A stretch of DNA of 64,000 nt from Treponema sp. (GTDB taxonomy: Bacteria; Spirochaetota; Spirochaetia; Treponematales; Treponemataceae): positions 1-64,000 of the forward strand of contig JAEEYO010000015.1 of NCBI GenBank assembly GCA_016288205.1. The letters are read 5' to 3'. The notes beneath the pieces are model-generated. The model made no database searches. It was given only the letters and a program-made list of their open reading frames with translations, and was not told the origin of the DNA. Each line of letters begins with the position of its first letter. Position 1 is the first letter of the stretch. The position numbers were made by a program, and so were the translations under genes. Below, in pieces: positions 38,475 to 42,579 of the stretch.

Positions 38475-38537
38475 GCATTATGAATTACTTTCGATTTTTT
38501 TTCAAGCCCACCTATTTTCAAAAATCCGCAGTTGTGC

Positions 38538-38550
38538 TACACTTACTACA
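38538..38550 (+). promoter_or_regulatory. pepF extended -10 promoter (predicted +1 = A of ATG)
   Basis: TGC-TACACT-TACTAC-ATG; weak -35 TTTTCA 17 bp upstream. Confidence 0.5.
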
Positions 38551-40355
38551 TGAGCAAAGAAACTATTCCTTTAAGAAAAGACGTGCCCGCTGAATACAAG
38601 TGGGACCTGTCTGCAATTTATAAGTCTGATGATGAATGGGAAGCTGATTTGAAAGCTGTTCCCGCCGCCACTGAAAAACTCGTCGCGTTCAAGGGACGCC
38701 TGGGAGAAAGCAAGGAGACTCTTCTGGAGGCACTTCATGCTGACGAGGCTTTGGACCGCCTGATGGAAAATGTCTATCACTACGCGAGTCTTTTGCACGA
38801 GGCTGACCAGGGTGATGCTGACGCGCAGGACAAAGTGAATCGTGCGATGATGGCATACACAAAATGCGGTGCCGAGACAAGCTTTTATGTTCCCGAGCTT
38901 CTTTCAATCCCCGATGAAAAAATCAGGGCGTGGATTTCGGAGGATGATTTCGCCGACTACCGCATTTATATAGAAAAGATTTTGCACGGAAAGGAACATG
39001 CGCTTTCTGAAAAGGAAGAGAGAATCATGGCCCTTCATTCCGAGACGGCATCCACCGCCGACAACGCATTCAGTCTGCTCAATGACGTGGACATGAATTT
39101 CGGCACGGTAAAGGTTGACGGAAAGGACCTGCCACTCACTCACGGGACATGGAGCAATTTCTTGGAGAACCAGAACCGCGAGGTGAGAAAGGAAGCCTAC
39201 GAAAAATTCTACGCAGTGTATGAGTCTCATGCGAACACGCTCGCAGCACTCTACGCTGGATCCGTCGCCAACGATGTTTTCGTCGCACGCGCAAGGGGAT
39301 ACAAATCATCTCTCGACGCGGGACTTTTCGGAAACAAGGTGCCTGAGGAAGTTTACCGCAATCTGATTGATACCGTGCATAAAAATCTGGAGCCGCTTCA
39401 CAGATTCTATTCGCTCAGAAAAAAAGTTCTCGGCGTGGATGATCTCCGTCATTACGATGTCTACGTGCCGCTTGTAAAATCAGTAAAGAGCCACATCACC
39501 TATGAGGAATCCGTGGAGATTGTCAGAAACGCGCTTTCCGTCCTTGGAAAAGATTACACCGACACTCTCTGCAACGGACTTTTGCACGGATGGGCTGACC
39601 GCTATGAGAACAAGGGAAAAAATTCCGGCGCATTCTCTTCCGGCTGCTACAAGGGATATCCGTACATTCTTCTGAACTACGACGAGGACACAATCCGCGA
39701 TGTTTACACGATGGCACACGAGGGAGGACACTCCATGCACTCATGGTTCAGCGTCCACAACAATCCCTTCATGAGCTACGAGTACACCATCTTCGAGGCT
39801 GAAGTCGCATCCACATTCAACGAGGAGCTTGTGTTTGAGTACATGCTCAAAGAGGCAAACGCAAAGGGCGACACAAACCTTGCGACATATCTTCTGTCCA
39901 TGCGCGCGAACGACATCCTTGCCACATTGCACCGTCAGACCATGTTCGCAGAGTTCGAGCTTAAGACACACGAGAGCCTTGAGCAGGGAATTCCTTTGAC
40001 GACTGACAAACTCCGCTCAATCTACCGCGAGCTTCTGGAGCAGTACTTCGGACCCGAGATGCATTTTGAAAAATCAAGCGACATGGAAGGACTCCGCATC
40101 CCGCATTTCTACAACGCGTTCTATGTCTACAAATATGCCACGGGAATCTCCGCGTCCCTCGCCCTCGCAAAACGTGTGACAAACGGCGGCGAAAAAGAAA
40201 AGGAAGATTACTTCAAGTTCCTGAAAAGCGGCGGCTCAAGATACCCGATTGAAAGTCTCCGTGTAGCCGGTGTGGACATGGCAAGCTCAGAACCGATTCA
40301 GGCGGCACTGGACACATTCGCATCGCTGGTCTCACAGCTTGAGGAAAGACTTTAA
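38550..40355 (+). CDS. pepF: oligoendopeptidase F (M3)
   Basis: HEGGHSMHSWFS zinc motif and M3 family layout. Confidence 0.92.
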   Translation: MSKETIPLRKDVPAEYKWDLSAIYKSDDEWEADLKAVPAATEKLVAFKGRLGESKETLLEALHADEALDRLMENVYHYASLLHEADQGDADAQDKVNRAMMAYTKCGAETSFYVPELLSIPDEKIRAWISEDDFADYRIYIEKILHGKEHALSEKEERIMALHSETASTADNAFSLLNDVDMNFGTVKVDGKDLPLTHGTWSNFLENQNREVRKEAYEKFYAVYESHANTLAALYAGSVANDVFVARARGYKSSLDAGLFGNKVPEEVYRNLIDTVHKNLEPLHRFYSLRKKVLGVDDLRHYDVYVPLVKSVKSHITYEESVEIVRNALSVLGKDYTDTLCNGLLHGWADRYENKGKNSGAFSSGCYKGYPYILLNYDEDTIRDVYTMAHEGGHSMHSWFSVHNNPFMSYEYTIFEAEVASTFNEELVFEYMLKEANAKGDTNLATYLLSMRANDILATLHRQTMFAEFELKTHESLEQGIPLTTDKLRSIYRELLEQYFGPEMHFEKSSDMEGLRIPHFYNAFYVYKYATGISASLALAKRVTNGGEKEKEDYFKFLKSGGSRYPIESLRVAGVDMASSEPIQAALDTFASLVSQLEERL

Positions 40356-40358
40356 CGA

Positions 40359-40466
40359 GTGGAAAGTAACGAGTTGAAAACGGAAAGTGGAAAACGGAAA
40401 GCTAGTGGACATACTATGAAACGAGCATCCAAACTTTCCACTTTCATCTTTCAACTTTCCACTTGT
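40359..40466. repeat. GTGGAAA/GTTGAAA heptad repeats in inverted orientation
   Basis: Forward GAGTGGAAAGTAACGAGTTGAAAACGGAAAGTGGAAA; reverse CTTTCCACTTTCATCTTTCAACTTTCCAC. Confidence 0.8.
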
Positions 40467-40471
40467 TCCGC

Positions 40472-40500
40472 TTGACATCTTTTTAAAATAGTTCTATATT
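40472..40500 (+). promoter_or_regulatory. promoter of the rtcB-prfH transcript
   Basis: TTGACA-N17-TATATT; predicted +1 at 40507. Confidence 0.8.
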
Positions 40501-40506
40501 AAAACC

Positions 40507-40527
40507 ATGTTCCGTATGGAGCGTTAA
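40507..40527 (+). other. 6-codon mini-ORF (MFRMER*) starting at the predicted +1
   Basis: ATGTTCCGTATGGAGCGTTAA; ATG coincides with the predicted transcription start. Confidence 0.4.
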
Positions 40528-40548
40528 ATTAATTTCAGGAGGCCAGTT

Positions 40549-40608
40549 ATGAAAAAGAATCTTTATCCCATTGCAACAACAGAAAGAGGACTGGCCGGAC
40601 GCTCATAA
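40549..40608 (+). CDS. 19-aa leader peptide candidate MKKNLYPIATTERGLAGRS
   Basis: ATG 6 nt after a perfect AGGAGG. Confidence 0.6.
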   Translation: MKKNLYPIATTERGLAGRS

Positions 40609-40703
40609 AAAAATCCGTCTGAATTAAAATTCCAAGTTAAGGTATTTTCGCTACTCCTCTTTTTTCAACAAATTAATTAATTTCTCTTTTTTATTTTTTT
40701 AAT

Positions 40704-40736
40704 CAGCTGCGGGAAGTTTTAAATTTCCTGCATCTG
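40704..40736 (+). other. hairpin just upstream of the rtcB Shine-Dalgarno
   Basis: CAGCTGCGGGAA...TTCCTGCATCTG, about 11 of 12 pairs including one wobble. Confidence 0.5.
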
Positions 40737-40756
40737 AAAAATCGCACAGGAGTTAT

Positions 40757-41917
40757 ATGAGCGAAAAATTTTTGCAGGGTAAAATCGGCTCTGCTACCAT
40801 TCATTGCACGAACAATGAAAATACGGATGTGGATTCTTATGCAATTCACCAGATAAAAAATCTTCTGGACAACGAGGCATCCAGGGAAAGCAAAATCGAA
40901 ATCATGCCCGACGTTCATCCGGGAAAAGTCTGCACGATCGGACTCACAATGACGGTCGGAAAAAGAGTCATCCCGGAGATTGTCGGAATTGACATCGGCT
41001 GTGGTCTTACGGTCGCCAGGTTAAAGCTGGTGCGTCCTGAATTTCAAAAATTGGACACGGTAATCCGCGAGAGAGTTCCATCGGGTTTTGAAAAACACAA
41101 GATGCCTCCACGACGCTCGGATGAAATTGACTTGACATCGCTTTGCTGCTGGGACAAACTTCGCAAAAATGACGACGGTTCCGCACGCGCTCTTCTCGGA
41201 CTCGGGACTCTCGGCGGAGGAAATCATTTCATTGAGGTAGACCGCGACGAGGAGAAAAATCCCTATCTCGTAATCCATTCCGGAAGCAGGCACTTGGGAT
41301 GCGAAGTCTCGGATTTTTATCTGAAGGAGGGACACAAAATCCTGAAAGGTCGCGGTGAGGACGTGCCTTACGAGATGACTTATCTTGAGGGCGAGCTGAT
41401 GGAAAAATACATCCACGACATAAAAATCGTGAGTGATTTCGCGTCGCTCAACCGAAGCATTATGATTGACGAAATCTGCCGGGGAATGAAATGGAAGATT
41501 GAGGATGAGTGGACCTGCTGCCACAACTACATTGATTTTTCTCCTGAGCTTGACCGCCTCATTTTGCGTAAGGGAGCGATATCCGCAAGAAAAGATGAGC
41601 GCGTAATCATTCCGGTGAACATGCGTGACGGTGTGATTCTCGGGTTCGGAAAGGGAAACGAGCGATGGAACTTTTCGGCACCACACGGCTCGGGCAGGAT
41701 TCAAAAAAGGGAGGACATAAAAAAATCGCATACGGTCTCTGAGTTCAAGTCCTCCATGAAGGGAATCTACTCAAGCTGCATCGGAAAATCAACTCTGGAC
41801 GAGGCACCTTTCGCATACCGTCCGATCTCAGAAATCCTTGAGTCCATTGAGGAGACTGTCAGCGTGGAAAAAATCATCCGCCCGGTCTACAGTTTCAAGG
41901 CGGGAGGTGAAGACTGA
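40757..41917 (+). CDS. rtcB: RtcB-family RNA ligase (RtcB2-like)
   Basis: MPDVHPGKVCTIGLTM, GIDIGCGLTV, LGTLGGGNHFIE, HSGSRHLG, SAPHGSGR; directly followed by prfH. Confidence 0.93.
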   Translation: MSEKFLQGKIGSATIHCTNNENTDVDSYAIHQIKNLLDNEASRESKIEIMPDVHPGKVCTIGLTMTVGKRVIPEIVGIDIGCGLTVARLKLVRPEFQKLDTVIRERVPSGFEKHKMPPRRSDEIDLTSLCCWDKLRKNDDGSARALLGLGTLGGGNHFIEVDRDEEKNPYLVIHSGSRHLGCEVSDFYLKEGHKILKGRGEDVPYEMTYLEGELMEKYIHDIKIVSDFASLNRSIMIDEICRGMKWKIEDEWTCCHNYIDFSPELDRLILRKGAISARKDERVIIPVNMRDGVILGFGKGNERWNFSAPHGSGRIQKREDIKKSHTVSEFKSSMKGIYSSCIGKSTLDEAPFAYRPISEILESIEETVSVEKIIRPVYSFKAGGED

Positions 41918-42579
41918 TGGAAGGAAAAATCCTGATACAGATTTCAAGCGGACGAGGCCCCGCGGAATGTGAGCTTGCCGTTGGACTTTTTGCACAGTCA
42001 CTCGCAAAGGAATTCAAGGGCATGAGAATTCTTGAAAAGCACAGAAGCGGAACCTGGGAAAAAATTCCAAAATCAAAACTGAAGGACGAATGTTTTAACT
42101 CAGTGATTGCGGAAATTGATTTTCACACACCGGAGTCCAAACCCAATCTTTGCGGCTCGGTTCTCTGGATTTGCAAAAGCCCTTTCAGACCCAAGCACGG
42201 AAGGAAAAATTGGTTCATTGACGTGAGCGAGGTGGAAAACTTCACGGATGAAAAAATCAGCCTTGATGAAAAAGACATCCGCATGGAGCGATTTCACTGT
42301 GGAGGAAACGGAGGCCAGAACGTAAACAAGGTTGAAACAGGGGTCCGCCTGATTCACATCCTCACCGGGATTTCGGTGACTGCGACGGAGGAAAGAAGCC
42401 AGCATTTGAACCGTGCGATTGCGATGAGAAAACTGGAGGAGAGAATCCGTGAAAAAATCAAGGAGGAGAACTCAGGACGTGAGAGCGAGAGATGGGAAAA
42501 ACACTGCACGCTTGAGCGAGGGAACCCAATCCGTGTTTATGAAGGGATGGGGTTTACACCCAAAGCTCAGTGCAAATAA
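41917..42579 (+). CDS. prfH: peptide chain release factor homolog PrfH
   Basis: FHCGGNGGQNVNKVETGVRLIHILTGISVTATEERSQHLNRAIAMRKL (GGQ) paired with rtcB. Confidence 0.92.
   Translation: MEGKILIQISSGRGPAECELAVGLFAQSLAKEFKGMRILEKHRSGTWEKIPKSKLKDECFNSVIAEIDFHTPESKPNLCGSVLWICKSPFRPKHGRKNWFIDVSEVENFTDEKISLDEKDIRMERFHCGGNGGQNVNKVETGVRLIHILTGISVTATEERSQHLNRAIAMRKLEERIREKIKEENSGRESERWEKHCTLERGNPIRVYEGMGFTPKAQCK

Follow-up and report, generated by a model that had tools for sequence, protein, structure and literature searches.

The rtcB gene analysed here is probably governed by a translation-controlled, ermC-like four-segment attenuator located upstream of it. The gene lies in the window, defined as the whole stretch of 64,000 nucleotides of Treponema DNA that was analysed. 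The supported steps of the mechanism are the conservation of a leader open reading frame (ORF), the covariation of segments 1 and 2, the non-random pairing of segments 2 and 3, and the computed, position-dependent opening of the rtcB site. In the proposed mechanism, a constitutive promoter would yield a leader RNA carrying a 19-codon ORF behind a strong Shine-Dalgarno (SD) sequence, in which segment 2 may pair either with segment 1 or with segment 3, and segment 3 has segment 4 as its other possible partner. Ribosomes finishing the leader would disrupt the 2:3 pairing, so that 3:4 forms and rtcB is turned off. A ribosome held on codons 1–5 would cover segment 1 and not segment 2, so that 2:3 forms, the rtcB site opens and expression is turned on. 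We infer that the natural inducer would be ribosomes slowed by decoding-centre damage or antibiotics, which rtcB(-prfH) would then repair or rescue to the benefit of the cell, and that the control would act on rtcB translation and not on transcription termination.

The closest named relatives of the window genome are Treponema MAGs. The rtcB gene (positions 40757–41917, forward strand) encodes an RtcB2-like RNA ligase of 386 aa, which matched PF01139 (E 8e-54), while its best NCBIfam equivalog, PRK09588, scored under its cut-off. It is directly followed by prfH (41917–42579, forward strand), which encodes a peptide chain release factor H of 220 aa that scored over the TIGR03072 cut-off and has an intact GGQ in the alignment; this is the RtcB2-PrfH operon layout. 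The two genes are flanked by a pepF-like peptidase M3 gene on the 5′ side (38532–40355) and by a convergent mnmG. In a phylum-wide TIGR03072 search the cut-off was passed by the window alone, the other proteins resembled RF1/RF2, and no additional leaders were obtained. Between pepF and the rtcB promoter (40353–40464), heptad repeats (GTGGAAA-like and AACTTTC-like) were observed in an inverted arrangement; matches to these short repeats were found in many further Treponema genomes, with several adjacent copies in G151. The window genome also holds a second RtcB fragment at a contig end (G000:C51:25-546), corresponding to the C-terminal part and ∼47% identical.

The sigma-70-type promoter TTGACA-N17-TATATT (40472–40500, forward strand) was present as originally predicted and goes beyond chance, matching 11 of 12 consensus positions. 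It is the sole promoter-like site within 40350–40800, and similar promoters were found upstream in relatives of clades A, B and C. At the predicted transcript start lies a 5′ stem-loop, GUUCC-GUAU-GGAGC (40509–40522, forward strand; −6.2 kcal/mol), whose stability was equalled by none of 200 shuffles. Clades A and B retain the form GUUCC-GUAU-GGA(G/A)C with covarying changes, GGGGC in G069 and GGAAC in G195. The stem-loop overlaps the leaderless mini-ORF MFRMER, which the original prediction had set in series with the 19-codon ORF. The letters of the mini-ORF are present at 40507, but it is unsupported as a gene and was found in no relative. Its ATG is restricted to the window, as the close relatives G005 and G009 read CCAGTTCCG and CAAGTTCCG, and clade B has GTG or TTG before TTCCG, with the early stop missing in most. 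The mini-ORF was therefore rejected; the relatives retain the stem-loop at this site and not the ATG.

In total, 200 Treponema genomes were searched with RtcB and with the leader DNA, and the DNA upstream of rtcB2-type genes was examined. This gave 18 loci with a readable upstream region; G017, which ends 52 nt upstream, and a few fragments were left out. All 18 loci carried a leader ORF of 18–24 codons, preceded by AGGAGG or a sequence close to it. The start of this SD lay 12 nt from the AUG in 17 loci and 11 nt in one, and the ORF ended 51–192 nt 5′ of rtcB. In the window, AGGAGG (40537–40542, forward strand) precedes the 19-codon ORF MKKNLYPIATTERGLAGRS (40549–40608 with its stop, forward strand), at the positions given in the original prediction. 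From the sequence comparison, the strong-SD leader ORF is real and conserved, SD and ORF alike exceeding what chance would give, its frame being preserved despite the differences in length among relatives. By sequence, the 18 leaders formed seven clades, most of which resemble one another little, and six other Treponema RtcB genes (∼48–50% identity) had no such leader upstream.

A leader ORF could also act through its peptide, either as an arrest peptide or as a small functional protein, and the C-termini ERGLAG or KEATAVRL are indeed common within clades. However, no peptide is common to all clades, for which reason an arrest peptide was rejected, and the conserved residues are those encoded by base-paired codons. 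In the Pseudomonas aeruginosa leader PA5471.1, moreover, the reported changes Q3K and F4L leave wild-type expression unaltered (PMC13041342). A peptide-mediated action is thus very unlikely.

The proposed attenuator is made up of a set of alternative pairings, all mapped on the forward strand. Segment 1, GGCCAGUU (40541–40548), comprises the 3′ end of the SD and the spacer. Segment 2 (40581–40596) lies late in the leader ORF, where GACUGGCC (40589–40596) pairs with segment 1 and AGAAAGAGGA (40581–40590) with segment 3. Segment 3 (40645–40664) contributes UCCUCUUUUU (40655–40664) to the pairing with segment 2 and UUUUCGCUACUCCU (40645–40658) to that with segment 4. Segment 4 (40748–40767) flanks the rtcB AUG and includes the rtcB SD AGGAGU (40748–40753) and codons 2–4, AGCGAAAA (40760–40767); its pairing with segment 3 in the window is bipartite (−16.0 kcal/mol). 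The complementarity of the SD-AUG spacer to the late ORF, GGCCAGUU/GACUGGCC in the window, was seen in nearly every locus with different partners, such as GGACAGCC/GGCUGUCC in clade D, GCCGACAA/UUGUCGGC in G068 and GAGGUUGC/GCAACCUC in G095, and was weak in G062. The original prediction had overlooked both this complementarity and the downstream alternative pairings.

Covariation of the 1:2 helix was computed over 12 distinct segment pairs. The obtained results showed that 92.7% of the cells were paired, compared with 69.0% in column shuffles, that both-sided changes occurred at 7 of 8 pairs (1/500 shuffles), and that the covariation score was reached by 0/500 shuffles and lost on sliding, in a test that leans towards structure because segment 2 was chosen by pairing in the alignment. 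Duplex energies were then compared with those of dinucleotide shuffles in which the same space was searched. Combined by Fisher's method over seven Treponema clade representatives, they gave p = 5.5e-8 for 1:2, p = 1.3e-5 for 2:3 and p = 0.05 for 3:4; over eight non-Treponema loci, the values were 0.002, 0.0004 and 0.008, respectively. The 2:3 pairing was missing in G095, and 3:4 was strong in clade C alone, where ACGGACAU pairs with AUGUCCGU across the start codon. When the window was taken by itself, the p-values were 0.028 (1:2), 0.18 (2:3) and 0.19 (3:4), and the 1:2 pairing was not exceptional by single-sequence folding (z −0.6). The pairing support for the window is therefore comparative, and 3:4 is statistically weak. 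Such modest single-locus statistics are the one point in favour of a chance arrangement with no regulatory leader at all. Against it stand the conservation and covariation over the 18 Treponema loci, the occurrence of leaders in other phyla, and the finding of a comparable strong-SD upstream ORF at only 1 of 50 other window ORFs of at least 200 aa, which together make chance scarcely credible.

The effect of a translating ribosome was assessed by placing its footprint at each leader codon and deriving, from constrained folding ensembles, how costly it is to open the rtcB site (−15 to +9). In most loci the site was predicted to be cheapest to open with the ribosome on codons 1–5, the cost at codons 1, 3 and 5 being below that at later codons. 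The opening cost in G028 was 4.5 with the ribosome early, against 8.9 for the free leader and 9.3 with the ribosome late, and in the window it was 5.3 early against ∼7–11 at codons 6–17. As a control, the stretch from codon 6 to the rtcB ribosome-binding site (RBS) was shuffled 40 times, with the later-minus-early opening difference as the statistic. This difference was reached by 0/40 shuffles for the window, C_G117, two clade D loci, E, F and L240, and by 1/40 for E. coli, so that 8 of the 10 tested loci, the window among them, surpassed at least 39 of 40 shuffles. The early-arrest effect failed in the other two, G005 (9/40) and G195 of clade B (33/40). The polarity, in which early arrest is on and passage is off, thus emerges from the folding calculation without any input of Pseudomonas sequence. 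Segment 4 is thus a candidate for the hidden rtcB RBS: its pairing with segment 3 is present but has p = 0.19 in the window, and the opening-cost test favours the assignment.

The same calculation bears on a second way in which the leader might sense damage, namely that loss of the 16S 3′ end abolishes initiation at the strong SD of the leader and that the free leader fold then permits rtcB expression, with no part for the mini-ORF. In its favour, the predicted openness of the free leader comes close to that of the early-arrested leader in the window, in clades C and E and in E. coli, and armZ is derepressed when the PA5471.1 stretch is deleted (PMC13041342). In clades D and F, by contrast, the free leader was closed (7.5–11.7 against 4.5–7.6 kcal/mol when early-arrested), rtcB is itself SD-dependent, and the mini-ORF is not conserved; such an anti-SD sensor is therefore unlikely. 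Because only the untranslated leaders of D and F are clearly more closed, non-translation in the window would also be predicted to be on. Loss of the anti-SD, which the original prediction had named as one possible signal, is accordingly compatible with the predicted openness of the untranslated window leader but is not required by attenuation through early arrest.

Translational attenuators of the ermC type are built from four alternately pairing segments and a leader ORF; the RBS of the downstream gene is hidden in 3:4, and arrest over segment 1 frees it. The window leader likewise has 1:2 and 3:4 against 2:3, with 1:2 and 2:3 significant over the clades and 3:4 weak. It differs in having no apparent drug-dependent arrest peptide, in having the leader SD itself at the border of segment 1, and in that the downstream gene is rtcB (with prfH), for RNA repair, and not a macrolide resistance methylase. 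In attenuators of the trp/his type, a short leader ORF is translated, and this decides between alternative RNA structures. Translation of the window leader would act in the same way, although it contains no run of regulatory codons and no terminator was found in it.

A closer parallel is provided by P. aeruginosa, where the 13-aa leader PA5471.1 lies upstream of PA5471 (armZ, RtcB-like) and PA5470 (prfH) (PMC13041342, PMC12057347). Expression of armZ is raised by ribosome-targeting drugs, by loss of suhB or cca, by an amber mutation at codon 3 and by deletion of the leader, while complete translation of PA5471.1 represses it (PMC13041342, PMC12057347). The two systems share a short leader ORF ∼250 bp 5′ of an rtcB-like gene that is followed by a release factor gene (PMC13041342, PMC12057347, PMC3516279), and in both, early-codon arrest would induce and complete translation repress, a polarity that in Treponema is computed. 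As judged from published descriptions of PA5471.1, they differ in length (13 aa against 18–24 codons in Treponema) and in that PA5471.1 is said to act by transcription attenuation in the service of mexXY efflux, whereas the Treponema leader looks translational, with segment 3 facing the rtcB RBS. The armZ locus itself was not found in the plasmid, phage and viral-contig collections searched. With PA5471.1-armZ-PA5470 as the experimentally studied precedent, the window leader is most likely a new, apparently translational variant of armZ-type control, convergent or very diverged between phyla.

Transcription attenuation was also considered for Treponema, with 2:3 or 3:4 serving as a terminator or with Rho acting on an untranslated stretch. 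It has been proposed for PA5471 (PMC12057347, PMC13041342), and UUUUUU follows the segment 3 strand of clade A. No intrinsic terminator-like site was found in the window leader, however, and segment 3 of clades D, E and F pairs with the rtcB start region yet has no U-run after it. This reading is accordingly improbable, and because the terminator-like 3:4 site was not found, the window leader is regarded as a variant and not as a strict member of the PA5471.1 type. A search of Rfam 15 with 40300–40900 gave no match at E ≤ 1. The local hairpin that lies between segment 3 and the rtcB RBS (40704–40736, forward strand) was confirmed in location and stability (−15.6 kcal/mol, equalled by 0/200 shuffles), but it is missing in G005, a relative with 91% identity, and G009 resembles its 3′ part only; it was rejected as a switch, being not conserved. 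The upstream alignment of relatives thus kept the SD and the leader ORF and dropped the mini-ORF and this hairpin. What stands of the original prediction is a plausible regulatory leader that would report ribosome health to rtcB(-prfH), whereas its arrangement of a mini-ORF in series and its hairpin switch have no conserved counterpart.

Leader ORFs were also found at rtcB2-prfH operons of E. coli, Proteus (MTTTNMNTLCGQSQK and stop), Klebsiella (MQNTSTSFAGLVR and stop) and several Alphaproteobacteria, and perhaps in one Bacteroidota; they occur in Tritonibacter, Rhizobium, Methylosinus and Shinella, and on two IMG/VR contigs, L240 and L241, whose operons are of cellular type. The non-Treponema pairing signal came mainly from Gammaproteobacteria and partly from Alphaproteobacteria, with no significant pairing in Methylosinus or Aureibacter. 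The Skermanella rtcB2 locus had no evident leader, and rtcB2-prfH on the phage-like IMG/VR viral contigs L247–L249 (up to 292 kb) had no leader ORF. The E. coli operon has the same two genes as the window and a leader ORF too, which is 15 codons long and unrelated in sequence to the Treponema leader (AAGGAGGTAAATCATG and MTNPLSMTLCRPFQD, then stop; 1:2 CUGCAAGGAG/CUCUUUGCAG; 2:3 GCAGAC/GUCUGC). Of 5369 records, 5340 matched its 120-bp leader core with an identity of 99% or more, while the surrounding 364-bp stretch showed 90–95% identity in 2079 records and 95–99% in 2102; no annotated feature covered the core among the rows listed. The evidence suggests that E. coli carries a leader ORF that is highly conserved and has so far gone unannotated.

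In E. coli, RtcB2-PrfH confers protection from colicin E3 (PMC9223846), and the truncated ykfJ of E. coli K-12 has been reported as inducible by 4-azaleucine (PMC3516279). Within the open-licence literature covered, the words "leader" and "upstream" are absent from the main text of PMC9223846, and "leader" is absent from a 2006 paper on the E. coli operon (PMC1586002). For MexXY, regulation by a leader of this sort has been called apparently unique (PMC12057347). It is conceivable, though somewhat short of an even chance, that leader-ORF attenuation is a general, cross-phylum control of RtcB2 in which ribosomes damaged in the decoding centre and stuck on the first codons signal their own repair, and that armZ/mexXY is a derived use of it. 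This would suggest ribosome-cleavage sensing, in which a broken ribosome stuck on the leader turns on the ligase that mends it, and, if true, a mode of regulation believed to be confined to a single drug-efflux circuit would become a widespread, testable form of control.

The leader travels with rtcB whether prfH is present or not. Among the 18 Treponema leader loci, prfH was intact in 10, internally deleted in G046 (L122), where the deletion removes the GGQ region, and absent just downstream in seven, namely L033, L111, L113 and L115 of clade B and L116, L117 and L125 of clade C. The notion that the leader always accompanies prfH was rejected, since clades B and C retain the leader without it. 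In E. coli/Shigella (L136, L145–L150, L156), the leader core was near-invariant even in strains where the annotation gives rtcB2 as a truncated pseudogene; large indels sit between segment 3 and rtcB. On L151, an IncC conjugative Klebsiella plasmid, rtcB2 and prfH adjoin sul1, and the annotated PrfH lacks the C-terminal part found in the other aligned PrfH proteins. On the Shinella plasmids L140 and L152, another RtcB-family gene lies directly 5′ of rtcB2-prfH.
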